From assembly GCF_937951745.1 (NCBI RefSeq), contig NZ_CALFBQ010000076.1, positions 1-40,000 of the forward strand: a stretch of DNA of 40,000 bases. The letters are read 5' to 3'. A program made the translations under genes and the position numbers. The stretch comes from an uncultured Chloroflexus sp. (lineage in GTDB: Bacteria; Chloroflexota; Chloroflexia; Chloroflexales; Chloroflexaceae). Position 1 is the stretch's first letter. Every line of letters begins with the position of its first letter. Under the pieces are notes generated by a model. It saw nothing but the letters and a program-made list of their open reading frames with translations, made no database searches and was not told where the DNA came from. Shown here piece after piece: positions 13,401-30,846 of the stretch.

Positions 13401-13534
13401 ACTAGCAGTGTACCACAATCAGATCGGGTACAATATGACACGCCGATGAGTTTTTGGGAGTAGCGATGAGGGAGGCGGGCCAATATCCCCTGTCTCTTTT
13501 TTCTATGGTGGGTGCATACATAAGGAGAAGGGAT

Positions 13535-14890
13535 ATGAATGATCTGCTCGCGCTGCTGGCTCGCCGGGTGGCCGAGGGGCGCCCGTTGCGGGTAGGCTTG
13601 ATCGGGGCCGGGAAGTTTGGCACAATGTTTTTGGCGCAGGCTCGCCGGGTGGCCGGTTTGCACGTGCTTGGCGTCGCCGATCTGGCGCCCGATCGGGCGC
13701 GGGCGGCGCTGGCGCGGGCCGGCTGGCCTGTCGAACAATATGCTGCGGGATCGCTAGCCGATGCGCTCAAGACCGGTGCTACGTATGTAGGTGACGATGC
13801 CGCAGCGTTAATTGCCGCCGATGGCCTTGATGTGATCGTCGAAGCAACCGGCGTGCCGGCGGCGGGGGTGGCGCACTGTCTGCTCGCGATCGAGCACCGT
13901 CGCCACATTGTGATGGTGAATGTCGAGGCTGATGCGCTGGTTGGCCCGTTGCTCGCTCGCCGCGCCGCCGAAGCTGGCGTTGTTTACTCGCTGGCTTATG
14001 GCGATCAGCCGGCCCTGATTGCCGAGCAGGTGGAGTGGGCGCGGGCTTGTGGCTTTGAGGTGATTTGCGCCGGTAAAGGCACGCGCTATCTGCCCCATTA
14101 CCACCAAAGCACGCCAGAAACTGTCTGGCAGTATTACGGTCTCAGCGCCGAGCAGGCTGCCGCTGGCGGAATGAACCCGCAGATGTTCAATTCCTTTCTC
14201 GACGGTACCAAGTCGGCGATCGAGATGGCGGCGGTGGCGAATGCATGCCATTTGCACCCGCAACCCCATGGCCTTACCTTCCCGCCGTGCGGGGTCGATG
14301 ATTTAGCTCACGTCTTGCGCCCGCAGACGGCTGGCGGTCAACTGGCCCACGCCGGCACCGTTGAGGTGGTCTCGTCGCTCGAACGCGATGGCCGCCCAGT
14401 CTTCCGCGATCTGCGCTGGGGAGTCTACGTGGTCTTTGCCGCGCCCGACGACTACGTGCGGCGTTGTTTTGCCGAATATGGTCTTGTCACCGATTCAAGC
14501 GGCGTCTACAGCGCGCTCTACCGTCCTTACCACTTGATCGGCCTTGAGTTGCCGATCTCGGTGTTGCGGGTGGGTTTGCGCCACGAGGCGACCGGTTGTC
14601 CGCAAGCGTTTCTGGGTGATGTGGTGGCGGTGGCTAAGCGTGATCTCGCCGAGGGTGAGGCGCTCGATGGCGAGGGTGGCTACACGGTGTACGGTAAGCT
14701 GATGCCGGCTGCCGATTCGGTGGCTGCCGGCGCGTTGCCGATCGGTCTTGCTCACGGCATCCGTACCCTGCGCCCGATTCCAGCCGGGGCTGTGGTGCGT
14801 TGGGATGATGTCGCCTACGAAACGAACCATTCCACCGTGCGCTTGCGCCGGTTGATGGAGCGCACAATGGCGCCGGGGGTGGCCCAATGA
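13535..14890 (+). CDS. Homoserine dehydrogenase-like oxidoreductase with C-terminal SAF domain (COG4091-like)
   Basis: The 451-residue protein has an N-terminal Rossmann domain with RVGLIGAGKFGTMFLAQARR. A middle catalytic part includes VIVEATGVPAAGVAHCLLAI and VICAGKGTRYLPHYHQSTP. A C-terminal SAF-type domain covers about 355-440 and contains HGIRTLRPIPAGAVVRWDDV. This matches the group annotated as predicted homoserine dehydrogenase COG4091, which acts in catabolism of sugar acids or branched polyols in several bacteria. The substrate here is unknown. The start at ATG 13535 follows AAGGAGAAGG at the right distance; the frame extends to 13454 without a good site. The stop overlaps the next dehydrogenase by four bases. 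Confidence 0.82.
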   Translation: MNDLLALLARRVAEGRPLRVGLIGAGKFGTMFLAQARRVAGLHVLGVADLAPDRARAALARAGWPVEQYAAGSLADALKTGATYVGDDAAALIAADGLDVIVEATGVPAAGVAHCLLAIEHRRHIVMVNVEADALVGPLLARRAAEAGVVYSLAYGDQPALIAEQVEWARACGFEVICAGKGTRYLPHYHQSTPETVWQYYGLSAEQAAAGGMNPQMFNSFLDGTKSAIEMAAVANACHLHPQPHGLTFPPCGVDDLAHVLRPQTAGGQLAHAGTVEVVSSLERDGRPVFRDLRWGVYVVFAAPDDYVRRCFAEYGLVTDSSGVYSALYRPYHLIGLELPISVLRVGLRHEATGCPQAFLGDVVAVAKRDLAEGEALDGEGGYTVYGKLMPAADSVAAGALPIGLAHGIRTLRPIPAGAVVRWDDVAYETNHSTVRLRRLMERTMAPGVAQ

Positions 14891-15738
14891 CGGTGGCGTT
14901 GCTTGGTCTTGGCTTGATGGGCCGGCCGATGGCCCGCACCTTGTTGGCTGCCGGTTGGTCGTTGGTGGGTTGGAATCGCTCGCCGCTCGATCCCGAACTT
15001 ACCGCCGGGATTCCGCTGGCGACCACGCTCGCGGAAGCGGCGCACGCGGATGTGCTGATTCTGATGCTGAGCGACTCGGCGGCAGTTGATGATCTGCTCT
15101 CACGGCTTGATCCGCTGTTACAACCCGGCCAATTGGTGATCGATATGGGTAGTTCCGACCCGCTGCGTTCACAGGCACACGCGACGACACTGGCCGCGCG
15201 CGGGATTGGGTGGGTTGATGCGCCGGTGTCGGGTGGCCCAGAAGGGGCGGCAGCAGGTACGCTGGCGATTATGGTGGGAGGCGCGGATGCTGATGTGGGG
15301 CGGGCGTGGCCAATACTCAGCGCATTGGGCCGACCGACTCACGTTGGCCCGGCTGGGGCTGGCCATACTGCTAAAGTCATCAACCAACTGATTGTCGGTT
15401 TGACCATACAGGCTGTCGCCGAAGCAACCGTCTTAGCCGAGGCGTATGGCCTTGATCCGGCACTGCTCCGCGCCGCGCTGGCCGGTGGCTTTGCCGACTC
15501 GAAAGTGTTGCAGATCCACGGCGCGCGCATGGCAGCGCGACGCTACATCCCCGGTGGCAAAGTAACGACGCAGCTCAAGGATTTGCGCATGGCGGCGGCG
15601 ATGGCGGCAGCAGCAGGGATCGAGCTGCCTCACTTGCGCGATACCATCACCCGCTACGAGACGTTGGTTGCGCGTGGGCACGGCGATCTTGACCATTCGG
15701 CATTACATATGTTGTTAGCGCAAAAGGTGACCTCGTAG
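14887..15738 (+). CDS. 3-hydroxyisobutyrate dehydrogenase-family beta-hydroxyacid dehydrogenase
   Basis: This 283-residue NAD(P)-dependent dehydrogenase oxidises beta-hydroxy acids. It has VALLGLGLMGRPMARTLL at the N-terminus, the substrate loop DAPVSGGPEGAAAGTLAIMV, and the catalytic lysine 163 in GAGHTAKVINQLIV. Arginine 31, just after the second strand (GWNRS), suggests NADP as cofactor. It overlaps the preceding SAF-domain oxidoreductase through ATGA and so is translated with it. The pair probably forms a short catabolic route for a hydroxy acid such as a tetronate or 2-methyl-3-hydroxy acid. That is inference from the families only. Confidence 0.88.
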   Translation: MTVALLGLGLMGRPMARTLLAAGWSLVGWNRSPLDPELTAGIPLATTLAEAAHADVLILMLSDSAAVDDLLSRLDPLLQPGQLVIDMGSSDPLRSQAHATTLAARGIGWVDAPVSGGPEGAAAGTLAIMVGGADADVGRAWPILSALGRPTHVGPAGAGHTAKVINQLIVGLTIQAVAEATVLAEAYGLDPALLRAALAGGFADSKVLQIHGARMAARRYIPGGKVTTQLKDLRMAAAMAAAAGIELPHLRDTITRYETLVARGHGDLDHSALHMLLAQKVTS

Positions 15739-16944: not shown

Positions 16945-17649
16945 CTACGGCGATGACGGCGACGATACCGTACCGGAGGCGTCGTTGAACCGGTAGCCGA
17001 CGTGCGGTTCTGTGATGATGTAACGCGGGTGGGCGGGATCGGGTTCGAGTTTGACTCGCAGCCGCCGGATGACACCTTTGACGTAATCGGTCGCGTCGGC
17101 ATACTGCGGACCCCATACCCGCTGCACGATTTGGCGCGCCGTGACCACGCCGTTGCGGTGCGCCACCAGTTCGGCCAGCACGGCGTACTCGATCGGGGTT
17201 AAGCTCACTGGTTGACCTTGCCGCAAGACGATCCGCCGGGTGGTGTCGATCACCAAATCGGCGCATTGGATCAGCGGCTGTGGGGCACGGCTTCGCCGCA
17301 ACACGGCCCGAATCCGGGCCAGCAATTCGCTCAGCCTGAAGGGTTTGACCAGATAATCATCGGCCCCATTGTCGAGCGCGGTGACAATATCAGCTTCCGC
17401 GCCTTTGACGCTCACGACGATGATCGGTGTTGCGCTTTGCTGGCGAATCTGCTGGCAAACGCCAATACCGCCCAGTTTCGGCATCACCAGATCAAGCAGC
17501 ACCAAATGCGGCCCCACCTGCCGGAACGCTGCCAGCGCCGTTTCGCCGTCATGGGCAGCGGACACCTCGTAACCTTGCGCCCGCAGCGCCGGCGTGATCG
17601 CGGCGACAATCCCCGGATCGTCATCGACAATTAGAATGCGCTGTTTCAT
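16945..17649 (-). CDS. OmpR/KdpE-like response regulator
   Basis: The 234-residue two-component regulator has a receiver domain (about 1-120) and a winged-helix DNA-binding domain (about 135-225). The receiver shows ILIVDDDPG with the acidic pocket, phosphoacceptor Asp53 in LVLLDLVMP, Ser80 in place of the usual switch Thr/Ser, and Lys102 in DDYLVKPF. The output domain has LTPIEYAVLAELVAHRNGVV and DYVKGVIRRLRVKLEPDP, closest in style to KdpE. Its ATG overlaps the stop of the histidine kinase gene (ATGA), so the two are a matched pair. No Kdp potassium transport gene is nearby. The adjacent divergent amidohydrolase operon is the likeliest target. Confidence 0.9.
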   Translation of the reverse strand: MKQRILIVDDDPGIVAAITPALRAQGYEVSAAHDGETALAAFRQVGPHLVLLDLVMPKLGGIGVCQQIRQQSATPIIVVSVKGAEADIVTALDNGADDYLVKPFRLSELLARIRAVLRRSRAPQPLIQCADLVIDTTRRIVLRQGQPVSLTPIEYAVLAELVAHRNGVVTARQIVQRVWGPQYADATDYVKGVIRRLRVKLEPDPAHPRYIITEPHVGYRFNDASGTVSSPSSP

Positions 17650-20066
17650 GCTGACTTGTCATCACCCAGCCACACTGGCGGTTCGTCGCTCACCAGTGGT
17701 AACACGATCCGAAACACGTTCCCACCCCCCGGACGATCATCAACCCAGATCTTGCCGCCGTGGGCGGTGACAATACCGTGACAGATGGCTAGCCCCAGCC
17801 CGCTACCGCTGCGATGACTGCGCCGGTCGCGTTCGAGCCGGTAGAACCGTTCAAAGATGCGCTGCCGTTCGGCGGGCGGAATCCCCGGTCCGCGATCGCC
17901 GACGCTGATCACCAACTGGGTGCTGGTGCAGAAGGCTTCCACTGTGACCGGCCCCGTTGGTGGGCCATATTTGTGCGCATTTTCGATCAGATTCCACAAC
18001 ACCTGCGCCAGCAAGATCGGATCAATGTAGAGTAGCGGCAAGGTTGGCGAGATGAAGGTTTCGATGCGGCATCCTGGATCGTGCTGGCCAAAACTCGTTA
18101 CTACATCCTTCACCAGCATTGCCAGCTCAACCCACTCGCGGTCGATCGGCAAGGTTCCGGCTTCGATACGCGATAGATCGAGCAGTTGATCGACAAACCG
18201 GCTGAGGCGGGTGGTTTCGCGGGCGATATTGCACAGCAAGGCCCGATTTTCAGTCACCGAAACGGCATGCTGTCGGTCGAGGAGATCCTCAACTGAGGCG
18301 CGGATGGCGGTTAGCGGCGAGCGTAGATCGTGCGAGACGCTGGCTAGAAAGGCGCTCTTAAGCTGATTGGCTTGCCGTAATGCCTCGTTCTCGCTCGCTA
18401 TTTGCCGCAGGCGCGCATTGCTCAGCGCCAACCCCAATTGCTGCGCAATGGTGAGCAACAAACTCAAATCTTCGCCGCTGATATGGCGGTGAGCGTGGCT
18501 ACCGATCACGAGTACGCCAGCGCCAGTGGCATTCACCATTAGCGGCAGCACCACCAGATCGCAAAAATCGGCTAACGGCCACGGCAGTGGTTCAGTCGCG
18601 GCATGGCGCCGGCAGAGCCACGCTGGTTGGCCGGTGGCAAAGACGGTCTCGATCAGGGCTGCTATCTGCGCTTGATCGATGGCGCTCTGCAGTGTGCCGG
18701 CAATGGTGAGGCGCTGATCTTCTTTCAGTGCGATCAACCCAGCGTCGAGCCGGGTGATGGCGAGGATGCGTTGCACGACTATATCAAGCTGGCGCACCGG
18801 ATCGAGCAAGGTGCTGAGAAAAAAGACCAGTGAGTTAATGACCTCGGTTTGGGCGGCATAGGCCTGCAAGTCGTTGTACAGCCGGGCGTAGCGCAGCATC
18901 GCCGCGCCATGAGTCGCCAATATCGCGCCGCATTGTTGCTCAGTCGCCATCCATAATTGGGCCGGGCGCGTCACCAGTATGACACCGCCAATATCAGGAA
19001 GCGGAAATCCGGCTAGTTTTGGCAACAGGTGCGGCATGTAAACAAATGGTTCAGGGATGGATCGCCATGCCAGTGCAACCGGATCGCGCACCACCGCTTG
19101 TAAGATCGCCAGCGCCTGCTCCCCTGATTCTCCCGGCGCAGTCCAGAAATAGGCGTGCGAGCGATCAATCGATGCGCCTTCAACTAGAGCCACCCCAGTG
19201 GCATCTAGCAGGCGGCCCATCTGTTCGATGATGACCGCTGGAGTGTACTGTGGATCAAAGGCGTTGCTGATAGCGCGCATTGCTGTGGCGAGCTGGGCGG
19301 TGCGATCGGGCCGGGAAGTCGCCGTCTGCGCTGGAATCTCGCTCGCTATGGGCGGCGTCCAACCGGAGAAGGTGCGCGGGCGAACCGGTTGTCTGGCCCA
19401 TTCCAAGCGGTAGCGGCGCTGCACTTCGGCAGCAGCAGCCGCAAGGACGCCGGTGAGGAACGGGCGTGCTAACCGGTAGTCGCCAGTGATGTCGAGCACG
19501 CCGATCAGCTGTCCATCATCAGGATGAATAACCGGCGCGGCGGTACAAGTGACATCTTGCCAGCCGCTACAGTAGTGCTCGGCCCCCACCAATTGCACCA
19601 CGCGCCCGGTTGTCAGCGCGACCCCGATCGCATTGGTGCCGGCCACCGCTTCGCTCCAATTGCTGCCGGGCAGTAACCCTTTGCGCGCTAGCCGCCGGCG
19701 GCAGTGCGGATCACCGTCCACGTCCAGCAGCGTGCCTTCAGCGTCGCTGAGCGCAATCACATACCCGGCATCGCCGAGTGTAGCCCGCAGACGGGCAAGG
19801 ATTGGGCTCGCCGCGCGTAACAAGGTTGTGTGCCGTTCACGGAGCTCGGCCAATTGCCGATCGCTGGTTGTGGCAAAACGGGCAAGCTGCACCTCGGCAT
19901 TGACCGCCAGCGTCCGGCAGCGTTGCCATGAATCGCGGATCACCGCGCGCATTGGCGAGAGGTCAACCTCGCCGCTGGCGATGAATTGCTCGCGTAACGT
20001 AGCTATCCGCCAAACTAGCGTCTCAAGGTCTCCCGGAGCGGCAATGTGCAGCGGTGCTTCGCTCAT
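17646..20066 (-). CDS. Sensor histidine kinase with AcoR-type N-terminal sensor and GAF domains
   Basis: The 806-residue kinase starts at ATG 20066 after AGGGAGG. Residues 1-215 resemble the sensory part of AcoR-type sigma-54 activators: IRDSWQRC, then GSNWSEAVAGTNAIGVAL, EHYCSGWQDVTCTAAPV and LIGVLDITGDY. That module normally sits on an AAA+ activator, not on a kinase. Two more GAF-like regions follow (about 255-385 and 415-555). The HisKA box is FLASVSHDLRSPLTAIRAS, the N box LWNLIENAHKYGP, and the G boxes DRGPGIPP and GSGLGLAICHGIV, with KdpD-like style. There are no membrane spans, so it senses a cytosolic signal. AcoR relatives respond to acetoin, acetone or similar small ketones and alcohols, which fits the neighbouring alcohol dehydrogenase operon. 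Confidence 0.87.
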   Translation of the reverse strand: MSEAPLHIAAPGDLETLVWRIATLREQFIASGEVDLSPMRAVIRDSWQRCRTLAVNAEVQLARFATTSDRQLAELRERHTTLLRAASPILARLRATLGDAGYVIALSDAEGTLLDVDGDPHCRRRLARKGLLPGSNWSEAVAGTNAIGVALTTGRVVQLVGAEHYCSGWQDVTCTAAPVIHPDDGQLIGVLDITGDYRLARPFLTGVLAAAAAEVQRRYRLEWARQPVRPRTFSGWTPPIASEIPAQTATSRPDRTAQLATAMRAISNAFDPQYTPAVIIEQMGRLLDATGVALVEGASIDRSHAYFWTAPGESGEQALAILQAVVRDPVALAWRSIPEPFVYMPHLLPKLAGFPLPDIGGVILVTRPAQLWMATEQQCGAILATHGAAMLRYARLYNDLQAYAAQTEVINSLVFFLSTLLDPVRQLDIVVQRILAITRLDAGLIALKEDQRLTIAGTLQSAIDQAQIAALIETVFATGQPAWLCRRHAATEPLPWPLADFCDLVVLPLMVNATGAGVLVIGSHAHRHISGEDLSLLLTIAQQLGLALSNARLRQIASENEALRQANQLKSAFLASVSHDLRSPLTAIRASVEDLLDRQHAVSVTENRALLCNIARETTRLSRFVDQLLDLSRIEAGTLPIDREWVELAMLVKDVVTSFGQHDPGCRIETFISPTLPLLYIDPILLAQVLWNLIENAHKYGPPTGPVTVEAFCTSTQLVISVGDRGPGIPPAERQRIFERFYRLERDRRSHRSGSGLGLAICHGIVTAHGGKIWVDDRPGGGNVFRIVLPLVSDEPPVWLGDDKSA

Positions 20067-20114
20067 AACGCCTCCCTGCGCGAGCAAGCTTTGGAATTGG
20101 GTGTGGATACTCTG

Positions 20115-20143
20115 GTTATACCATGCCTCCCCGCACTCGTCTA
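20115..20143 (-). promoter_or_regulatory. Candidate promoter of the kinase-regulator pair
   Basis: On the minus strand TAGACG, 17 bases, TATAAC: four and five matches to the -35 and -10 consensus. It lies 49 bases before the kinase ATG in the region shared with the divergent amidohydrolase operon. Confidence 0.4.
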
Positions 20144-20280
20144 CTCATGCCGCCGGTTTTTTCACTGCTTTTTCACCGCGCCCCCTCCCTTTTCCTGTTA
20201 CGATGCTCTCAACCCCACATGCAGCTAATCGACCGTCACAATGGTGGTGACCGGCATGTCATCGGAGACAGGAGGAGTGT

Positions 20281-21327
20281 ATGTACCGCACTGCTGATGG
20301 CCGCGAGATCTTCGTCATCGATGCCCATACCCATCTGTGGGATGCTAGCCCAGAGAATCAGCGCGGCAAGTTGGGCAAGGGTTGGATTGATTGCTTCTAT
20401 GCTTACCACAAGAATCTCTCGCCGCCCGATAAGGTGTGGACGCTCGAACACTACGAGCGCTATTCGGTCGAAGATATGGCCCGCGACCTCTTTGTCGAGG
20501 GCTATGTCGATATGTGCATCTTGCAGTCAACCAACCTGTTCGAGTTTTACCACACCGGTTTCAACCCAATCGAGCGCAACGCCCAGCTCAAAGAGGCCTT
20601 CCCGGAGCGCGTGATTCTCAACGGTTCGTTTGACCCGCGTCATGGCGAAGACGGCCCGCTCGGCCTGAATGCGTTGCGCCAAGCTAAGCAACAGTACGGT
20701 ATTCAAGGCGTCAAGCTGTATACTGCCGAGTGGCACAACGGCTCGCGGGGGTGGAAGTTGAATACCCCAGAAGCCTATCGCTTCTTTGAAGAGTGCGAAA
20801 AGCTCGGGATCACGAACATTCACATTCACAAAGGTCCGACCATCTGGCCGCTCGATCGCGACTCGTTCGATGTGGCCGACGTTGACTATGTAGCCACTGA
20901 TTTTCCCGGTCTTACCTTTATCGTCGAGCATTGTGGCCTGCCGCGCCTCGAAGACTTCTGCTGGATTGCGACCCAAGAGACGAATGTCTGGGGCGGCCTC
21001 GCTGTGGCTATGCCCTTCATCCATTCCCGCCCGCGCTACTTCGCCGAAGTGATGGCGAACCTGCTTTACTGGCTCGGCCCCGACAAGTTGACCTTTGCTA
21101 GCGACTATGCGCTGTGGACACCGGGTTGGCTGGTTGAGAAGTTTATGGCCTTTGAGCTGCCCGAAGACCTTGAGGCTGAGTTTGGCGTCAAGCTGACGAT
21201 GGAAGCTAAAGAGAAGATTCTTGGCCTGAATGCAGCCCGGCTCTACGGGATCGACTCGGAAGCGAAGAAGGAGCAATTGCGGAATATGCCGGTTGTGCTC
21301 GACGGTGCCGCGCCGGCCACCGTCTGA
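20281..21327 (+). CDS. Amidohydrolase-2 family protein of monooxygenase-cluster type
   Basis: The 348-residue metal-dependent hydrolase or decarboxylase-like TIM barrel (PF04909) has the metal motif VIDAHTHLWDASP at residues 12-24. It also has NIHIHKGPTIWP, FIVEHCGLPRLEDFCW and the late acid in FASDYALWTPGW. ATG 20281 follows AGGAGG. Proteins of this subgroup are encoded beside propane, phenol and acetone diiron monooxygenases (prm/mim clusters) of Actinobacteria, together with a DUF59 protein and an alcohol dehydrogenase, and exactly those two follow here. Their exact role is not settled. Help in assembling the diiron hydroxylase is one proposal, and an enzymatic step is another. Confidence 0.83.
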   Translation: MYRTADGREIFVIDAHTHLWDASPENQRGKLGKGWIDCFYAYHKNLSPPDKVWTLEHYERYSVEDMARDLFVEGYVDMCILQSTNLFEFYHTGFNPIERNAQLKEAFPERVILNGSFDPRHGEDGPLGLNALRQAKQQYGIQGVKLYTAEWHNGSRGWKLNTPEAYRFFEECEKLGITNIHIHKGPTIWPLDRDSFDVADVDYVATDFPGLTFIVEHCGLPRLEDFCWIATQETNVWGGLAVAMPFIHSRPRYFAEVMANLLYWLGPDKLTFASDYALWTPGWLVEKFMAFELPEDLEAEFGVKLTMEAKEKILGLNAARLYGIDSEAKKEQLRNMPVVLDGAAPATV

Positions 21328-21339
21328 AAGGAACTGCCG

Positions 21340-22113
21340 ATGCCCACGCTTGCCGAGATCAATCGCGCGCTGGCCGAGGTCTACGATCCCGAACTCGACA
21401 CGCCGATCACTGAGTTGGGTTTCGTCAACGAGGTGCAGATCGCTGATGGGCACGTTACCGTTACTTACACTGTCCCCACCTTTTGGTGCGCGCCTAACTT
21501 CGTCTTTATGATGTCGCAAGACATTCGCGATGAAGTCGGGCGGGTGCCGGGAGTCATACAGGTAACGGTGCTCGTCCGCAACAACTGCCTCGAAGACGAG
21601 ATCAACCGTGGCGTTAATGCCGGGCGCAGCTTTGCCGAGACCTTCCCCGCCGATGTGGATCAGAACGCTGATCTGGAGGTATTGCGCCACACCTTCAACG
21701 TCAAAGGCTTTCTGGCCCGGCAGGATGTATTAATCCGCCGGATGCGACAGGCTGGACTTGCCGATAACGCGATTCTGACATTACGCCTCGGTGACGTTAA
21801 GGTGCAGGGGGAAGACCTGATCCTCTCGCCACCGCCACACCGAGTGCCACTGGCAGCAGCCGATCTTCTTCGCTATCTGCACAAGCGTCGGCGTTTACAG
21901 CTCTCAGTTGCAGCGGAAGCGCTACTCTTCACTACGGTTGCAGGCCAATCAATCGCTGAAACTGAATTGGCTACGTATTTACGCTACTCGCGCTCGGCCC
22001 GGCTGAATATCGCGTTCAACACAAGCCTATGCGAAGGCTTGCTGCGCACTCAGTTCTTCCCCGAACGGCAACACGACCATTCTAGCGTCGGCGATCGCTT
22101 GATGATTGGATAG
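21340..22113 (+). CDS. DUF59 (MIP18/PaaD-like) metal-cluster assembly protein with C-terminal extension
   Basis: The 257-residue protein opens with a DUF59 domain (residues 1-85): AEVYDPELDTPITELGFV and the conserved cysteine 50 in PTFWCAPNF. This domain is found in Fe-S or metal-centre maturation factors (SufT, PaaD, MIP18). Residues 90-257 form an extension without a recognised domain; it is helical, with HTFNVKGFLARQDVLIRRM. The gene starts 12 bases after the amidohydrolase and follows AAAGGA, so the two are one operon. The same order occurs in actinobacterial propane monooxygenase clusters. A role in diiron or Fe-S centre assembly is inferred. Confidence 0.82.
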   Translation: MPTLAEINRALAEVYDPELDTPITELGFVNEVQIADGHVTVTYTVPTFWCAPNFVFMMSQDIRDEVGRVPGVIQVTVLVRNNCLEDEINRGVNAGRSFAETFPADVDQNADLEVLRHTFNVKGFLARQDVLIRRMRQAGLADNAILTLRLGDVKVQGEDLILSPPPHRVPLAAADLLRYLHKRRRLQLSVAAEALLFTTVAGQSIAETELATYLRYSRSARLNIAFNTSLCEGLLRTQFFPERQHDHSSVGDRLMIG

Positions 22114-22126
22114 AGAGGATAAACCT

Positions 22127-23170
22127 ATGCGCGCTGCTCGTCTGCACGAGTACGATGAACATCTCAACGTCCAGCTCCAACTCGAGGATGTGCCGCTGCC
22201 CAAGATTACCAAACCCGGCGAAGTGATTGTGCGGATTGGCGCGGCAGGGTTGTGCCGCACTGATCTGCACATTATTGAAGGAGTATGGAAGGATATTCAA
22301 GACCCGCAACGCACCTTGCTGCCCTACATCCTTGGGCACGAGAATGCAGGTTGGGTGGAAGAGGTTGGCCCCGGCGTAACCTCGGTCAAAGTCGGCGATC
22401 CGGTAATCTGCCACCCGTTACGTTCGTGCGGGGTTTGTCTCGGCTGCCGGCGCGGCGAGGACATGTACTGCGAGCACGGCAGCTTCCCCGGCCTCAACTG
22501 TGATGGCGGCTTTGCCGAGTATCTGTTGACTAACGAACGGGCACTGATCAAGCTCAACCCCAACGTGGCGCCGGTCGATGTCGCGCCGCTGGCCGATGCC
22601 GGCATTACCGCTTACCGGGTCGCCAAGAAAGCGGCCCGCAAGCTGACCCCCGGCCAGTATTGCGTCATTCTTGGCGTCGGCGGCCTTGGCCATATCGCGC
22701 TGCAATCGGTGCGCGAGCTATGCGGAGCGCGGATCATCGCGGTTGACCGTTCGGAAGCGGCGCGCAAGCTAGCGCGCGATCTCGGCGCGCACTATGTGCT
22801 CGATGGCGGCGACACGATTGTGCAAGAGGTGAAGGAACTGACGCATGGCGGCGCACATGCCGTGATCGACTTCGTAGGTGAATTGGGCGCCGAGCAGGTC
22901 TCGTGGCAGATGCTGCGCCAAGGCGGCACCCATTATGTGGTCGGCTACGGTGGCGCCGTGCATGTGCCCACCGTTCACATGATCATCACCGAAATCGCAA
23001 TCGAGGGCAGCCTCGTCGGCAACTACGTCGAGCTAGTTGAATTGATGGAGCTGAATGCCGAGGGGCGGGTCAAGCTGCATGGCCAGCAATACCGGTTGGA
23101 TCAGATCAATCAAGCGATCAACGACTTCAAGAATCGGCAGATTGCTGGGCGGGCGGTGATTGTGCCGTAA
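22127..23170 (+). CDS. Zinc-dependent, NAD-type alcohol dehydrogenase
   Basis: This medium-chain dehydrogenase of 347 residues has catalytic zinc ligands Cys43 (AGLCRTDLH) and His71-Glu72 (GHENAG). The structural zinc site is at Cys101, 104, 107 and 115 (CGVCLGCRRGEDMYC). The coenzyme loop is GVGGLGHIALQ, with an acidic residue after the next strand (IAVDRSEAARK), which favours NAD. ATG 22127 follows GAGAGGAT, 13 bases after the DUF59 stop. An earlier in-frame codon at 22106 would overlap that gene. It is the last gene of the trio and is followed by two strong hairpins. Oxidation of a short secondary or primary alcohol is likely, as in prm-linked Adh. Confidence 0.92.
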   Translation: MRAARLHEYDEHLNVQLQLEDVPLPKITKPGEVIVRIGAAGLCRTDLHIIEGVWKDIQDPQRTLLPYILGHENAGWVEEVGPGVTSVKVGDPVICHPLRSCGVCLGCRRGEDMYCEHGSFPGLNCDGGFAEYLLTNERALIKLNPNVAPVDVAPLADAGITAYRVAKKAARKLTPGQYCVILGVGGLGHIALQSVRELCGARIIAVDRSEAARKLARDLGAHYVLDGGDTIVQEVKELTHGGAHAVIDFVGELGAEQVSWQMLRQGGTHYVVGYGGAVHVPTVHMIITEIAIEGSLVGNYVELVELMELNAEGRVKLHGQQYRLDQINQAINDFKNRQIAGRAVIVP

Positions 23171-24448: not shown

Positions 24449-27400
24449 TCAATCACCGATCAAGACCGTGACTTGAGCCCGGTTGTTGGTCTCATTCACC
24501 TCTTCCACTGCGCCGAAGGGGCTGCGTTCACCGCCATCAGGGCTCCGGTTCCAGCTATCCACGTAGGCGTAGATTGTATTGAGACCGCGTGGCAGTCGTC
24601 CATTCCATGTCGGTGAACTTGCTGCAGGATCGTAACCAAAGGGATTGGTTGAACTACGCGGGAAACTGATGAATGTCACACTCTCACCGGGTTGCAGGGT
24701 GCCGTCAAAGTACCATGCCAACCCTTGCCGTGACAGCTCATTCCACGGCTCATTTACTTCTGGTGGGCGTGATGGGTTAACGTACAGATCGACCCAGAAG
24801 TTGCTCGCCGGTTCCCGGCCAATGTTGGTCACCGTCACCCGATAGGTTACCGGTGTGTCGGCATTCGGGTTCGTGGGTGTGGCTTGGATGCTGGCGATAA
24901 GGTCTGGTGGAATTTGGACGATGGTCATTGGCAGATAGACCAGCACCCGCCGGTAGTACCCCATATCAATGACCACTTGCTGATCAGCAGCGAGAGTGAA
25001 CGTCGCGATTGGGCCATCGCTATCGGTAGCGTCATCGCCAACATTCGGTTGTGCCGGCAGATGGCCAAGCAGGTTTCTGAAGACAACCGTTACTTCGCTT
25101 GGTGGCAAGCCGGTAACACTGTACGAACCGTCGCCTACAGTCTGGAGTTGGATCGTTTGTGGCTGAGCCGGCAGTAATGTCGGCGTGTACGTCACCGTGA
25201 CTTGAACGCCTGCTAACCGTTCGGTTTCATTTGGATCGCGCTGATTGTTCTCGTTGGTGTCAAACCAAACGATCCCGCTCACACCGCCGGTGCCGCGCAG
25301 ACCAGCATCAATCCCGGCCAAAGCTTGGCCGCTAAGAATGGTGAAATTGGTTGTCGTACCATCACTACGGAAATCGTTGTCATCATCGACGTTGATCGAA
25401 CCACTGCCGTTGTTCGTTGTCGTATAACCACTTGGCAAGGTGATCCGAAGCGAATACGTGCCCGGCGTTACCTCGTTAAATGCGTAGCTGCCGTTTGCCA
25501 ACGTCTGAGTTGTGGTGATGGTATTCCCGCTGCTATCACGCAAGGCGATGGTCAGTCCCGGTATACCCGGTTCACCCGCATCACGCAGACCGTTGCCGTT
25601 GACATCGAACCAGACCGTATCACCAATCGCGGTGGTGCGGTAGAGGCCGAAGTCGATCGTCGTGTCGGTGGCATTCAGCGTGAAGCTTTCACCAACGGCG
25701 TTGCTATCCGTGGCCGGGTTGCCACCCTGATTGGCGAGTGTAAGCAGATACCCAAACCGACTGACCGACTGGATCGTTACTGTGCTGCCCGGCGGGATGT
25801 TGTCGATAGAATAGTTGGCGCTCAAGCCACTGGCTGCCGTTGAGACAGTGCTATAGGTGAATGATGGATTGGTAGAGTTGATAACTCCACCATTGGTCTG
25901 CACCGTCACGGTGACCGTCACCCCATCGAGTGCTTGTTCGCCACTGTCCTGAATACCATTGGCGTTGGTATCTTCCCACACGAGATCGCCAATCGACAAC
26001 GCACCGCGCAGGCCGGCGTCGATATAGGTAATGTTGGAACCCGAAGCCACTGTGAAGCTAGTTGTGCAGCCACTGGTCTGATCGGCATCACTGTTGTTAT
26101 CGTCAGTCAACGTTGATCCGCGCGTTGTAAACGTGAAGCCGGTTGGTGCCGTGACACAGAGCTGATACGTCGCGTTGGTCAGGCCGGTCGGTTCGATAGT
26201 GGTGATCGAGAATGCGCCGTTAGCATCGGTTGTGACCGGCGTGCTCGGCCCGCTGCTGCTACCAACCAGCCGCACGCTGATATTCTCCATCCCCGGTTCG
26301 CCGCTGTCGAACAGACCGTTGCGGTTGGTGTCGAACCAGACAGTACCGCTGATCTGGGCCGGACGGTAATATCCGAACGGTACCGGGTCAGATGTTGTAC
26401 CGCTCAGTACTACCCCTGTGCTCGCCGTGCCGGTATTGCCCGGTGAACGAATATATCCACTTGGATCAGTCGGGACCGTGAAGGTGTATGTCCCGGGAGG
26501 GCCACTGAATGTGACGATGCCGCTCAGATCGGTGACTTGACTGCTGGTAATCGGCCCACTGACATTGACGGTCACTGCGCGTAAACCGGCTTCACCGCTT
26601 TCAAAACTATTATTGATGGTCACCGTCTCGTCAAAGACGCGCGCGCGCACAGTAACGTTCTGATAGTAGCCTTGATCGCGGCTAGCGGTTGCCCCGATAC
26701 TAAGCGGTTGATTCGTTAGCTCAGCGACGCTGTCGCTGTCAGTTGCGTCACTACCTTGATCGTCCAGCGTCACCTGATACGGTGGCGTGGCGGGGGGCGG
26801 TGTAAAAGTCAGCGTAAAGCTAGCTTCACTTGCCGATGTGCCGCCGGGGAGGCCGGTAAAGCTGTACTCGCCATTGCTATCGGTAGTCGCCGTGCGGGTG
26901 ATGGTCGTGGTAAGATTGGCAAGGGTGATGGTCGCGCTCAGATTAACCGTCACGTTAGCCAATCTTGGCTCGCTAGCGGCGCGCTGGCCGTCGTAGTTGC
27001 TGTCGATGAAGGCAATACCATTTACCGTGCTGTTACCAATCAACGCCGCTCGCCGAGTCGTCGTCTGACCGTCAATGACGGTAAAGAGATCGGTGCGTCC
27101 GTTATTGCTGACAATCGTTGCCACACTGTTATCGCCGGTATTGGCAGCGACGAAGCTGAAGTTGGTCGGTGCCGGATTAACGAACTCTAGTCGGTAACTG
27201 CCACCCTCGATATTAGCGATCGTGAAGTTACCGCTACTATCAGTGGTTGCACTGCCAACAACAGTATTCGACGTATTCAGCAGGCGTACCGTCACTCCGC
27301 TCACTCCCGGCTCGCCGGCGGCGAGATTATCAGCCGGCCCATTTGTGCCATCGAAGAAGACCTGCCCGCTGACCCGGCCAAAGGTGTAGAAGCCGAAGAC

Positions 27401-30400
27401 GTTGGTCGTGCCGGGAGGACTGGGTTCGGTCAGCGAGCTGCCGCCGCTTGTCAATGGCGATCCCGCAACCGTCACTGCTGCGGTTGAGCCTGATGATGGC
27501 AACAAACCGCTCAGCGCCGCCGAGCTTTCATCAACATTGAGCCGATAATCGCCGGGACGAACGGTAAAGGTCACAAGGCCGCCGGTGGTCGTTGTCTCGG
27601 TCAGCACGCGGGTGCTGTCGGGCCGTTCGAGCCAGACGCGCACGTCGGTGATGCCCGTCTCGCCGGTATCCCATTGATTATTACGCCCGGCTGACGGTTC
27701 ACGGAAGACACGCGCGCGAATGGTGACATTGCGGAAATAGCCTTGATCGAAGTCAAGCGTACCGCCGGAAGCCGGCCCAGTTTCGGTGACAGTGGGGCCA
27801 TCGCTATCGATGGTATCATCACTACCCACATTCGGATCGCTAGGAATATAGCTGCTAGATGGTGGGGCAAACGTAATGGTATAGGTGATTGTCCCAGCGC
27901 TGCCGCCCGGCAAACCGGTGAACTGATAGTTTGGCGGCGCTGTCGCGAGTGTTGCCGGATACGTCGCTACAAGGTTCGGCAGGTTAGCCGTGACCGTCAA
28001 CGTCACCGTTGCACCGGCCAGATCGGTATCGCCGGCATCTTGCAGATTGTCAGCGTTGTTGTCCTCAAAAATCCGCCCCGTAACTGTTGTTTGACCACGG
28101 AAACCAGCATCAATATTGGTGAATGTGCCGTCATACCGTACGGTGATGATATTGGTGCTGCTATCGGCAACGTTTCCCGCCGTTGTTACATCGCTGTCAC
28201 CGCCGGTAATGAAGGCATAATTGGCCATATCGGGATTCGTGAAGCGAACGGTGTAGGTACCGGGGAGGATGTTGGTGAAACTGTATGCGCCAAGAGATGT
28301 AGTTGTGGTAGTAGCAATTACACTGCTTGATGAATCAATCAGCTCGACCGTCACATTCCGCATACGCGGCTCGCCACTGTTGGCTAACCCATCGTCGTTT
28401 GCATCAAAAAAGGTCACGCCGCTGATCCGGCCCGGCCGATAGTAGCCGAAATAAGCATCACGTGTATCGCCGCTAACCAGACCGGTGAAGGTCAGGCTAC
28501 CGGTATTGCCGGTTGAGGCGAGATAACCGGAAGGCGTTGTCACCGTCACGGTATATGAACCGGGGCGCAAGTTGAAGATTGCTTCACCGTCCAGATTCGT
28601 TGTGAGTGTAGCTGTCTCGGTTCCAGTCACATTGATGGTCACGCCACTAATGCCGAGTTCGCCAGAATCGAGCGAATTGTTAATCGTCACTGTCTCGCCA
28701 AAAACGCGCACAACAATTCGCACTGGTCGGTAGAAACCAGCATCAACACCATTGTTATTGGTGCCTTGCGCCGGCGTAAAGGTTTCAGTGCGCCAAATAT
28801 CGCTGGTGCCTATCCGCGAATCAAGATCGCTGTAATCGGTATAGGTTACCTCGGTAGGATCAACCGGCGTGCCAGTTGGGCGCAAGCTGCCGACAAAGCC
28901 AATATACCCAATGCCGGCGGTTGAGATATCGAAGGTGACATAGATCGGTTCGGCGGGTAAGCCGGGAATCGAATACACACCGCTACTATCGCTTACTCCT
29001 GTCCCGAGCAGCACGTTATCGCTCGCGCGGTAGGCGCTCACGGTCACGCCGGGGATAGCCGGTTCGCCGCTATCAAAAATACCGTTTCCGTTGCGATCCT
29101 CAAACACCCGATTGCCAATGCGAGCGCGGGTCATACCAAAATCAACATCCGTATTATCGGGCGTTCCCGCGCTGAGCGTAATCGGGCCGCGATAGACGTA
29201 GCGATTGCCATTGCCGTTGGTGGCTTCCATGCCAGTTGATGTTCCCAACCCGACCAGCGCGCCACCGGGCAGGAAATTGGCTTCATCAAGCACGATCCGG
29301 TACGTCGTAGGCGTTGTGCTTAGCGGCAGATCGTCGAACAGATAGTAGCCGGGTTGACCGGTCGTGGGATTATTGGTCGTAACGGTGAAAATTTCGTTGC
29401 CGTCGCGGATGCCATTGTTGGCCGTGCCGCCGCCACGCCCGTCGTCAACAAAGACGATCACGCCGTTGACGCCAATTTCGCCGGAGTCTTGCACCGTATC
29501 GCCATTATCATCCAGCCAGACGTAATCACCGATCAAGCCTTTGTAAAAGCCGAATAGTTGATTATTGCGGGTGTTGCTGGTGGTACTGAGAAGGAATATG
29601 GGGCCGGTCACATCACCTGTGGGTACGCCATCGGGTGACCCAACATCGCCACCGGTAGCATCGGGCGAATTGGCGGCGCCGAAGAGAACAGCTCCGCTCG
29701 CAAATTGGCTGGATGGAATAACCACTCGGTAGTTCGCGCCGAGCGGCACGCTGGTGAAGACGAAAAATCCGCCGTCAGCCGGCTCGCTCGAACCAATGCG
29801 CTGACGGGTGGTGACGGTCGCAACGGTTGTGCTAGTGTCGGTATTGACCAGTTGCACCTCCACGCCGTTCAGGCGCGGCTCGCCAACCTCCCACAAGCCG
29901 TTGCGATTGGTATCGCGCCACACGAAGCCGCTCACAGCGCCTCGGGCAAAACCAATATCTACGTTGTCAATATTGACGCCACGACCGGTATTGGGCAGCG
30001 AAGCCTCGGCATTGCCGCTCACGAGTACCGCATCAGAATCGCGAATGCTGGGGTTAGGCGCGCCATCGTTGACAAACGCTTGGGTCAAGATGTAGCCGCT
30101 AGGGAAATTAGTGGCCAGAATCCGTACCCGGTAGCCGGCGCCGGTTGGAGCCACGTTAAAGATCGCGCGACCTTGGCTGTCGGTATTGACCGGCCCGGCT
30201 ACGGTGTTGCCAAGGCTATCAATCAGATACGTAGGCAAATTGGTCAGCGGCGGCTCGCCGGCATCTTGAATACCGTCAGCATCAAGATCATCCCACACCC
30301 GCGCCGCAATACTGCGGGTACCAACTGGCGCACCGGTATCGATCACGCCATCGAGGTTACGAAGTCCAACTCGCTGCGTCACCGCACTGCCAGAAATGGT

Positions 30401-30787
30401 TACAAACGAGAGCAACCCAGCATTGCCCGTTCCCGGTACCGAAACCACCCGCGCGCCGAGATTGCTGACCTCGATCCGGTAATCGCCGTCAGGCAAAGCG
30501 GGAAACACCACCTCTCCGTCACTATTGGTCGTATTGAGACCAACGAGGACGCTATCGGCAGTGTAAACCGAGACCAACACGCCGGCGACGCCATTGCCCG
30601 GTCCGTCATTATCGAGACCGTCGCGGTTGGTGTCGAGGTAGACGCGCACAGTCAGTGTTCCGGCGGCAAAGGCTGTGAGCGTCGCGCCGAACAGTGCGCT
30701 GAAGATAAGGAGAGCGATCAGAATGAGGGGAAAGAGGTGTTTTCTGCTGTGGCCGATTCGCTGTGTGCCAGAGGCGTAGTGAGCCAT
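24449..30787 (-). CDS. Giant secreted protein with about 16 SdrD-B-like modules and a C-terminal CARDB domain
   Basis: The predicted 2112-residue product begins at ATG 30787 with a signal peptide. A basic N-terminus is followed by LFPLILIALLIFSALFGATL, with cleavage expected after AFA near residue 41. About 16 beta-sandwich modules of 95-140 residues follow, each opening with a calcium-loop-like phrase such as VWFDTNRNGLFDSGEPG or VWEDTNANGIQDSGEQ. These are typical SdrD-B or Cna-B-like domains. The last 165 residues contain a CARDB-like adhesion domain (PDLIASIQATPTNPNADTPV to NETNNRAQVTVLI). No sortase signal or C-terminal span is present, so cell attachment is by other means. Modules 6-14 repeat as triplets. 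A role in adhesion, sheath or filament surface is inferred. A good promoter precedes it. Confidence 0.9.
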   Translation of the reverse strand: MAHYASGTQRIGHSRKHLFPLILIALLIFSALFGATLTAFAAGTLTVRVYLDTNRDGLDNDGPGNGVAGVLVSVYTADSVLVGLNTTNSDGEVVFPALPDGDYRIEVSNLGARVVSVPGTGNAGLLSFVTISGSAVTQRVGLRNLDGVIDTGAPVGTRSIAARVWDDLDADGIQDAGEPPLTNLPTYLIDSLGNTVAGPVNTDSQGRAIFNVAPTGAGYRVRILATNFPSGYILTQAFVNDGAPNPSIRDSDAVLVSGNAEASLPNTGRGVNIDNVDIGFARGAVSGFVWRDTNRNGLWEVGEPRLNGVEVQLVNTDTSTTVATVTTRQRIGSSEPADGGFFVFTSVPLGANYRVVIPSSQFASGAVLFGAANSPDATGGDVGSPDGVPTGDVTGPIFLLSTTSNTRNNQLFGFYKGLIGDYVWLDDNGDTVQDSGEIGVNGVIVFVDDGRGGGTANNGIRDGNEIFTVTTNNPTTGQPGYYLFDDLPLSTTPTTYRIVLDEANFLPGGALVGLGTSTGMEATNGNGNRYVYRGPITLSAGTPDNTDVDFGMTRARIGNRVFEDRNGNGIFDSGEPAIPGVTVSAYRASDNVLLGTGVSDSSGVYSIPGLPAEPIYVTFDISTAGIGYIGFVGSLRPTGTPVDPTEVTYTDYSDLDSRIGTSDIWRTETFTPAQGTNNNGVDAGFYRPVRIVVRVFGETVTINNSLDSGELGISGVTINVTGTETATLTTNLDGEAIFNLRPGSYTVTVTTPSGYLASTGNTGSLTFTGLVSGDTRDAYFGYYRPGRISGVTFFDANDDGLANSGEPRMRNVTVELIDSSSSVIATTTTTSLGAYSFTNILPGTYTVRFTNPDMANYAFITGGDSDVTTAGNVADSSTNIITVRYDGTFTNIDAGFRGQTTVTGRIFEDNNADNLQDAGDTDLAGATVTLTVTANLPNLVATYPATLATAPPNYQFTGLPGGSAGTITYTITFAPPSSSYIPSDPNVGSDDTIDSDGPTVTETGPASGGTLDFDQGYFRNVTIRARVFREPSAGRNNQWDTGETGITDVRVWLERPDSTRVLTETTTTGGLVTFTVRPGDYRLNVDESSAALSGLLPSSGSTAAVTVAGSPLTSGGSSLTEPSPPGTTNVFGFYTFGRVSGQVFFDGTNGPADNLAAGEPGVSGVTVRLLNTSNTVVGSATTDSSGNFTIANIEGGSYRLEFVNPAPTNFSFVAANTGDNSVATIVSNNGRTDLFTVIDGQTTTRRAALIGNSTVNGIAFIDSNYDGQRAASEPRLANVTVNLSATITLANLTTTITRTATTDSNGEYSFTGLPGGTSASEASFTLTFTPPPATPPYQVTLDDQGSDATDSDSVAELTNQPLSIGATASRDQGYYQNVTVRARVFDETVTINNSFESGEAGLRAVTVNVSGPITSSQVTDLSGIVTFSGPPGTYTFTVPTDPSGYIRSPGNTGTASTGVVLSGTTSDPVPFGYYRPAQISGTVWFDTNRNGLFDSGEPGMENISVRLVGSSSGPSTPVTTDANGAFSITTIEPTGLTNATYQLCVTAPTGFTFTTRGSTLTDDNNSDADQTSGCTTSFTVASGSNITYIDAGLRGALSIGDLVWEDTNANGIQDSGEQALDGVTVTVTVQTNGGVINSTNPSFTYSTVSTAASGLSANYSIDNIPPGSTVTIQSVSRFGYLLTLANQGGNPATDSNAVGESFTLNATDTTIDFGLYRTTAIGDTVWFDVNGNGLRDAGEPGIPGLTIALRDSSGNTITTTQTLANGSYAFNEVTPGTYSLRITLPSGYTTTNNGSGSINVDDDNDFRSDGTTTNFTILSGQALAGIDAGLRGTGGVSGIVWFDTNENNQRDPNETERLAGVQVTVTYTPTLLPAQPQTIQLQTVGDGSYSVTGLPPSEVTVVFRNLLGHLPAQPNVGDDATDSDGPIATFTLAADQQVVIDMGYYRRVLVYLPMTIVQIPPDLIASIQATPTNPNADTPVTYRVTVTNIGREPASNFWVDLYVNPSRPPEVNEPWNELSRQGLAWYFDGTLQPGESVTFISFPRSSTNPFGYDPAASSPTWNGRLPRGLNTIYAYVDSWNRSPDGGERSPFGAVEEVNETNNRAQVTVLIGD

Positions 30788-30846
30788 ACGATGCTCTCTT
30801 GTCAAAACTATTGCAAATCCTTTACGATACGTAGTATGACAATCGT

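Follow-up and report, generated by a model that had tools for sequence, protein, structure and literature searches.

An AcoR-type sensor on a histidine kinase beside a mim-type amidohydrolase–DUF59–alcohol dehydrogenase operon of Chloroflexus

Introduction

AcoR-type control of mimABCD by the regulator MimR was reportedly described by Furuya et al. in 2011. Here we analyzed a 40,000-nucleotide stretch of an uncultured Chloroflexus sp. (NCBI RefSeq assembly GCF_937951745.1, contig NZ_CALFBQ010000076.1, positions 1 to 40,000; hereafter the window) that resembles MimR/mimABCD in an AcoR-type sensor and a presumed link to acetone. As in the mim-type clusters of our survey, an amidohydrolase (AMH), a DUF59 protein and an alcohol dehydrogenase (ADH) are among the neighboring genes, a set we refer to as the trio. 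In contrast to MimR/mimABCD, a histidine kinase bears the sensor, its partner is an OmpR-type regulator, and the promoter region combines a repeat with a sigma-70-type -10 element; searches of the genus yielded no monooxygenase, and the genes have no GroEL neighbor. From the sequence, the probable reading is a self-standing AMH-DUF59-ADH operon under a dedicated two-component system of AcoR-type sensor, regulator and repeat.

The enzymes have precedents. The Mim cluster of Actinomycetospora chiangmaiensis is alike in Adh1, an amidohydrolase-like protein and, as predicted here, acetone induction, and differs in having MimABCD and MimG; excerpts of the report describe strong induction of the cluster with Adh1 and the amidohydrolase-like protein on acetone and 2-hydroxyisobutyrate, and its authors propose that Adh1 oxidises acetol to methylglyoxal (PMC7176365). 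The pairing of an 'amidohydrolase' with an 'iron-sulfur cluster assembly protein' is already in print, as a figure legend marks both in monooxygenase clusters (PMC9213486). Diiron monooxygenase clusters accompanied by a kinase and a response regulator are likewise reported, in excerpts on smoABCD (group 6 soluble diiron monooxygenases) of Mycolicibacterium and Rhodococcus, where hisK of Mycolicibacterium chubuense contains a GAF domain; that system differs in its LuxR-type regulator, NDMA-dependent ADH and aldehyde dehydrogenase (PMC8784404, PMC11057499), and the words amidohydrolase and DUF59 are absent from the main text of the latter paper.

Among the titles and abstract openings returned by a literature search, none gave an account of a kinase bearing an AcoR sensor together with AMH, DUF59 and ADH, or of the Chloroflexus operon. 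Two-component control of a catabolic operon is known; the AcoR sensor on a kinase, the readable operator and the mim-type trio standing alone appear to be new.

Results

The kinase carries an AcoR-type sensor

The source genome comprises 4.25 Mb in 94 contigs and is estimated to be 99.39% complete. On the minus strand of the window, an OmpR/PhoB-type response regulator gene (16945-17649; Response_reg and Trans_reg_C) overlaps by 4 bases the gene of a sensor histidine kinase (17646-20066). Divergent from them, the plus strand encodes an Amidohydro_2 protein (AMH, 20281-21327), a long DUF59 protein (21340-22113) and a zinc-dependent ADH (22124-23170). Pfam thus bears out all five genes named by a first-pass annotation of the letters and open reading frames, whose interval 17646-23170 omitted the regulator. 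Its label 'KdpE-like' for the latter proved generic: the regulator scores 187 bits against a KdpE cut-off of 325 and 209 against 300 for MtrA, and the kinase scores 169 against 1123 for KdpD, which places the pair outside KdpDE by the NCBIfam cut-offs. A HisKA/HATPase kinase adjoining a receiver and winged-helix regulator defines a two-component gene pair. The regulator region DATDYVKGVIRRLRVK is nearly invariant among nine full-length regulators aligned; a tenth, from genome G251 (G and L handles denote genomes and loci), ends before it at a contig end. The longest kinase reading frame reaches TTG 20087, and ATG 20066 (MSEAP...), preceded by a ribosome-binding-site-like GGAGG, is the more likely start. 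For the ADH, whose longest frame begins at TTG 22106, direct reading favors ATG 22124.

The kinase contains GAF domains at residues 89-202 and 434-555, then HisKA and HATPase_c (Pfam). The earlier reading of residues ~1-215 (19443-20066, minus strand) as an AcoR-type sensor held up in a plasmid tblastn, a phylum-wide search and a sensor tree. By tblastn, residues 1-215 matched 505 plasmid records. Among the 40 matches listed, 24 were annotated, 17 as sigma-54-dependent or -interacting regulators, four as 'GAF domain-containing' and three as helix-turn-helix proteins, and none of these 24 as a kinase. The N-terminus retains SWxRC, which we take to be an AcoR-type sensor motif, followed by an AcoR-like GAF. 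The protein as a whole is not an AcoR, as HisKA/HATPase_c take the place of the AAA+ sigma-54 interaction domain and the Fis-type helix-turn-helix.

Sensor matches occurred in 32 of 301 Chloroflexota genomes, with at least 50% identity in eight (six of the genus, G061 and G251). A class-level search at E 1e-25 was positive in 11 of 158 genomes, adding G301, G330, G349 and G350, while in the class of G251 the sensor kinase was found in one of 47 genomes. The kinase is thereby present in 12 genomes: G000, G052, G061, G110, G126, G198, G251, G267, G301, G330, G349 and G350. On the sensor tree (70 of 111 rows, with G301, G330, G349 and G350 left out) the eight kinase sensors form one clade with an SH-aLRT support of 96, so a single origin is likely.

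A direct repeat faces the trio

A strongly conserved block of the divergent intergenic region in the alignment is TTTTTCACC-NN-TTTTTCACC, an 11-bp-period direct repeat aimed at the trio, followed by TGTTACGATG or a close variant. The window reads TTTTTCACT-GC-TTTTTCACC (20158-20177, plus strand), with a -10-like TACGAT inside the conserved TGTTACGATG downstream (20199-20204, plus strand). On the minus strand, a conserved TATAAC picked by eye from the alignment (20115-20120) is a possible -10 of the kinase/regulator promoter. Operators of the PhoB/OmpR type consist of two direct repeats of 11-bp period upstream of a -10 element. The arrangement here is alike, with TTTTTCACC as the repeated sequence and binding as a prediction, and we consider it a probable response-regulator operator.

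We derived the motif from six loci of the genus together with L140 and G061, and inspected G251, G301, G349 and G330 afterwards. The repeat is present in all 12 genomes found with the kinase, counting G330 at 3 mismatches: it is perfect in G052, G110, G126, G198, G267, G301, G349 and G350 and has 1 mismatch in G000, G061 and G251. A scan allowing up to 2 mismatches covered 12 whole genomes, a set that includes G230, G238 and G142 in place of G330, G349 and G350. All 11 hits with 0-1 mismatch lay at the kinase locus; four further hits had 2 mismatches each, and the control, the pattern read backwards, gave four hits in total. At up to 3 mismatches the expected count in the window is 0.01, a set of 23 Chloroflexota trio stretches without the kinase (357 kb) contained no copy, and two hits occurred across 1.49 Mb of wider-survey loci. 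The repeat was retained while the flanking intergenic DNA diverged. A trio-side -10-like element follows it in the seven loci measured and in four more. The spacing between the two is ~21 bp in the window; it is 33 bp in G061 and 42 bp in G251, which would be about one and two helical turns longer.

Two other readings concern this regulatory pair. The kinase GAFs may read an unrelated cue such as redox state, light or oxygen, with the adjacency to the trio being only positional. GAF domains bind many ligands, and on the sensor tree the join of the kinase sensors to mim-linked regulators is unstarred and long-branched. However, the kinase adjoins the trio or monooxygenase genes in 11 of 12 genomes (G349, the remaining one, has a contig end there), kinase and long DUF59 are both missing from G230 of the same genus, and the repeat was specific to the kinase locus in the genome scan, all of which makes this reading unlikely. 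Alternatively, the repeat might be the site of a different OmpR- or SARP-family regulator, or matter for autoregulation of the kinase and regulator only. It lies between two divergent genes, and repeats of 11-bp period are also used by SARPs, which bind heptamer repeats of this spacing according to excerpts of two reports (PMC5930380, PMC10972967). The trio-side -10-like element, the absence of the repeat from the kinase-free trio stretches scanned and a second copy aimed at a separate gene in G330 (see below) speak against both versions, which we regard as quite improbable.

Two loci show an interrupted region. In L047, an insert of ~730 bp (~7654-8406) separates two copies of the operator repeat, and in L046 the same two copies lie 733 bp apart. 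The L047 insert, the one we read, presumably encodes a MazEF-type toxin-antitoxin pair, a name given by eye.

Relatives that keep the monooxygenase

The earlier interpretation was also supported by G251, a member of another class. There the kinase/regulator pair is divergent from a complete operon encoding monooxygenase alpha subunit (MOa), reductase, beta subunit (MOb), MmoB and AMH, and the repeat is aimed at MOa and not at AMH. The pair also occurs in the monooxygenase-bearing genomes G061 and G330. In G061, MOa-reductase-MOb-MmoB-GroEL and, ~3.4 kb further on, a SARP-type regulator gene (BTAD, AAA_16, TPR) share a contig with the trio and the kinase; the SARP gene lies just downstream of the ADH, in the trio's direction. 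In G330, trio and kinase share one contig, and a monooxygenase-GroEL operon and a SARP gene 78% identical to that of G061 lie on another.

The second repeat copy of G330 (2 mismatches) is located 0.54 kb upstream of this SARP gene and aimed at it; another gene starts 28 bp away on the opposite side. The chance of a 2-mismatch repeat in a given 20 kb is ~0.001, as calculated from four off-site hits in ~61 Mb. In both G061 and G330, the monooxygenase promoter has another direct repeat of 11-bp period, CAAACG-N5-CAAACG-N9-TATACT, which occurs nowhere else in 257 overlapping loci (2.99 Mb); it was read by eye from the two-sequence alignment and scanned afterwards, and is therefore post hoc. Because the G330 copy aims at the SARP gene and the CAAACG repeat resembles SARP sites, these data suggest a cascade from regulator to SARP to monooxygenase in G061 and G330. 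A strong predicted hairpin (z -3.2) separates ADH and SARP in G061, so that the SARP gene is at most a candidate for co-transcription with the trio.

The alpha subunits of G061 and G330 are 97% identical. Among the sequences compared, the best match for G061 was proteobacterial (78%) and for G251 actinobacterial (74-76%), so the monooxygenases of G061 and G251 seem to have been acquired separately.

Sigma-54-like and predicted sigma-70-type promoters

Upstream regions of 500 bp were scanned for -24/-12-like sites with GG and GC fixed, with unrefined reading-frame starts and without a shuffle control. At a maximum of 1 mismatch in 10, a site preceded 51 of 72 monooxygenase alpha genes (G251 among the 72) and one of 52 AMH genes in monooxygenase-free loci, the one being that of Peribacillus, which has an AcoR-type regulator. 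The eight kinase-type loci had candidates with at least 2 mismatches or none, and carry the repeat with a TACGAT-like -10 in place of a sigma-54-like promoter. The core-binding domain of sigma-54 was found in none of eight genomes of the genus and its DNA-binding domain only as stop-containing matches (G000:C57:58287-58703 and G198:C40:59323-59556), so that rpoN appears to have decayed there. GAFTGA, checked as an exact string, is present in 51 of 64 AcoR-type proteins near the trio. L111 (7187-9064; G000:C42) encodes a full-length AcoR-like protein that has a Sigma54_activat domain and lacks this string, with similar proteins in L113 and L114; it is thus retained in a genus in which no intact sigma-54 gene was found.

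The enzymes of the trio

The AMH is an ACMSD-type amidohydrolase of PF04909 by both its Pfam match and its modelled TIM-barrel fold. No solved structure matched the AMH profile by sequence; the fold search returned decarboxylases, LigJ hydratase and similar proteins at 11-18% identity and query TM-scores of about 0.46-0.59 among the matches listed. Fifteen aligned AMHs are 48-71% identical to that of the window, and the DUF59 proteins 28-64%. The DUF59 protein comprises 257 aa. Its N-terminal FeS_assembly_P domain (PF01883) is CIAO2/SufT-like and contains DPE and PTxxC, presumably the motifs of this family; residues C50 and C231 are invariant in the alignments. The C-terminal ~150 residues are mostly helical in the model and have no solved relative by sequence, and their fold matches were weak (E 0.2 or worse), several being Cre/Xer recombinases. 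The closest solved sequence to the ADH is 1h2b (E 6e-101).

On trees of the three enzymes, a label for monooxygenase-bearing loci was clustered, with 6 (AMH), 5 (ADH) and 8 (DUF59) changes versus shuffled means of ~26, 20 and 22. The AMH tree used a random 30 of 70 monooxygenase-positive L1xx/L2xx rows, had L051 (G061) labelled by hand and left out L139 and L062, as well as L044, L063 and L110 (no full AMH); the ADH and DUF59 trees (67 and 76 rows) used a faster model. The window's ADH belongs to a supported group (98) of 23 rows; 13 of these, G061 among them, are labelled monooxygenase. The AMH of the window lies in a Chloroflexota-rich branch of 32 rows with one such label.

Distribution of the trio

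The best-scoring 80 of at least 542 confirmed matches were surveyed, so the proportions are not those of nature. Genes were annotated by phmmer against references of our choice, which are the genes the survey can see. Monooxygenase genes were in the fetched stretch of 63 loci, with DUF59 near the AMH in 62, GroEL in 61 and an AcoR-type regulator in 51; the GroEL reference had no match in the window. Among the 17 monooxygenase-free loci, two of them on contigs that end early, DUF59 was found in 16 and ADH in 12. Loci at contig ends were counted as found: L142 (3 kb, with GroEL) and L209 scored as monooxygenase-free, and L153 as monooxygenase-bearing by MmoB alone. The trio had been described as a companion of prm/mim clusters in Actinobacteria. 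Its membership in such clusters stands, and its restriction to Actinobacteria does not, since the complete examples of this survey were mostly proteobacterial.

Across Chloroflexota, 28 genomes with long DUF59 gave 29 stretches of up to 20 kb (DUF59 matches weaker than E 1e-18 were left out). All three trio genes were in 27, the other two ending at contig ends, and none of the 29 contained a monooxygenase gene within the stretch. G061 carries its monooxygenase immediately beyond the stretch, and in G231 monooxygenase genes lie on other contigs; an alpha-subunit query of 30 Chloroflexota genomes gave clear hits elsewhere in these two and weak ones (22-30%) in G148 and G084. A monooxygenase gene was likewise neither annotated nor detected near the trios or AMH-DUF59 pairs found in other Chloroflexota families, Thermomicrobium (where a distant alpha homologue, 29%, is encoded far away on the plasmid), Bacillota (Peribacillus), a Rhizobium, Acidiphilium, Poribacteria and two haloarchaea.

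The term 'accessory trio' was hence too narrow. Because 27 of 29 Chloroflexota stretches have the trio without a monooxygenase gene and the window's AMH branch is labelled monooxygenase in one of 32 rows, the trio, judged from sequence comparison, is homologous to the mim set yet more than an accessory to the mim monooxygenase. The association of AMH with DUF59 persists where no monooxygenase is present, which weakly argues for the DUF59 protein serving the AMH rather than the hydroxylase.

Conceivably, the trio could be what remains of a mim-type monooxygenase operon since lost, and no longer have a function itself, as the same-family relatives G061 and G330 hold a monooxygenase-GroEL operon along with kinase, regulator and trio, and the ADH groups with monooxygenase-linked rows. 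Yet all three reading frames are open in the seven genomes of the genus in which we found the trio, the AMH is 94% identical in L139 (a bin labelled uncultured Chloroflexus) and 93% in L140 (a bin labelled Roseiflexus), the repeat was kept in diverged surroundings, and monooxygenase-free trios or pairs are spread over the lineages named above. We therefore give the leftover reading only a small probability.

No diiron hydroxylase found in the genus

Accessory AMH, DUF59 and ADH genes of a mim/prm cluster are present, and the hydroxylase alpha and beta subunits were not found in the own genome. PF02332 matched none of eight genomes of the genus, the own genome included, with G061, G231 and G251 as positives. 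This profile also matched none of 14 named control genomes, and the domain scan of the own genome was not relied on alone: an alpha-subunit query that reached matches of 27% identity found nothing in seven genomes of the genus, again including the own genome. The first-pass annotation had called for this search and considered a monooxygenase encoded elsewhere in the genome; although a little of a 94-contig genome may be missing, a hydroxylase overlooked by both searches is very improbable, given that the single-contig genomes G110 and G126 carry the trio and were negative as well.

Discussion

In the self-standing operon that we favor, the kinase sensor would bind a small ligand, possibly a ketone, hydroxyketone or alcohol, upon which the kinase would phosphorylate the adjacent OmpR-type regulator. 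The regulator would then bind TTTTTCACC-NN-TTTTTCACC upstream of the sigma-70-type -10 and switch on the trio. In monooxygenase-bearing relatives it probably acts directly (G251) or via the SARP activator (G061, G330). The ADH probably oxidises a C3-type alcohol or hydroxyketone, the AMH may process a further intermediate, and the DUF59 protein would supply metal, most likely to the AMH. In the complete, mostly proteobacterial clusters surveyed, the enzymes accompany a diiron monooxygenase, usually with an AcoR-type activator and in many cases with a sigma-54-like promoter; by comparison, the Chloroflexus locus retains this kind of sensor and has a different predicted output machinery.

Several observations weigh against this picture. 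On the sensor tree, the kinase sensors fall outside the proteobacterial mim-linked AcoRs and join mim-linked Rhodococcus regulators and some Chloroflexota AcoRs with a support of 92. Since this join is unstarred and has long branches, a ligand common to the kinase and the mim regulators is at most a possibility. Eight of 25 Chloroflexota non-kinase sensor rows (two being the same gene) had no match to the AAA+ reference, so AcoR-type sensors may sit on other partners too. The kinase gene of G052 is frame-split within the sensor (L050 6053-8486), which may be a sequencing error or decay. AMH is not always the first gene of its operon, which makes the 52-locus side of the promoter contrast rough. 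The genome of G251 is fragmented (1020 contigs, 87% complete, 6% contamination), and its locus contig measures 8.7 kb. The operator repeat was sought at up to 5 mismatches on the monooxygenase promoter of G061 and is not there, so a repeat shared with that promoter was rejected. Loss of sigma-54 as the cause of the output swap was rejected too, because G061, G330 and G251 keep sigma-54 genes together with the kinase.

On a wider scale, we tentatively propose that a single sensory module remained attached to a single metabolic regulon as its output was exchanged. Proteobacteria would use a sigma-54 AAA+ activator as output, Rhodococcus an AcoR-like activator lacking the GAFTGA string, and Chloroflexota the kinase, regulator and repeat; in the last, the monooxygenase, where there is one, would be reached directly in G251 and via SARP in G061 and G330. 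The trio would be a monooxygenase-independent module of bacteria and archaea whose DUF59 protein matures the AMH and not the monooxygenase. The locus may thus be a naturally occurring example of regulatory rewiring whose operator can be read from the sequence, and it belongs to a genus from which sigma-54 seems to have been lost. As the widely annotated 'amidohydrolase + iron-sulfur assembly protein' pair occurs here without a monooxygenase, its role in monooxygenase clusters becomes a testable question. If the ligand is of the kind proposed, kinase and repeat could serve as a small sigma-54-independent ketone/alcohol biosensor.

Neighboring genes and related loci

Monooxygenase-free AMH-DUF59 pairs are followed by a DJ-1/PfpI gene in Peribacillus (L034 10871-11443) and by gloA in Rhizobium N324 (L036 10820-11230); these neighbors hint at methylglyoxal. 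On the haloarchaeal plasmids L035 and L134, AMH-DUF59 is divergent from ADH, and a gene annotated as a bacterio-opsin activator domain protein lies nearby. The module also occurs in another family of the order, in G350 (L249) and L140, and G349 (L250) has the kinase end on a 3.2-kb contig; transfer or misbinning may account for this. In the window, positions 24449-30805 encode a 2118-aa protein with 15 SdrD-B-like stretches, relatives of which adjoin the trio in L046-L049. On the other side, a DRL_cat/SAF oxidoreductase gene is followed by a 3-hydroxyisobutyrate-dehydrogenase-like gene (13454-15738), and both are also found near the regulator in L047, L049 and L251.

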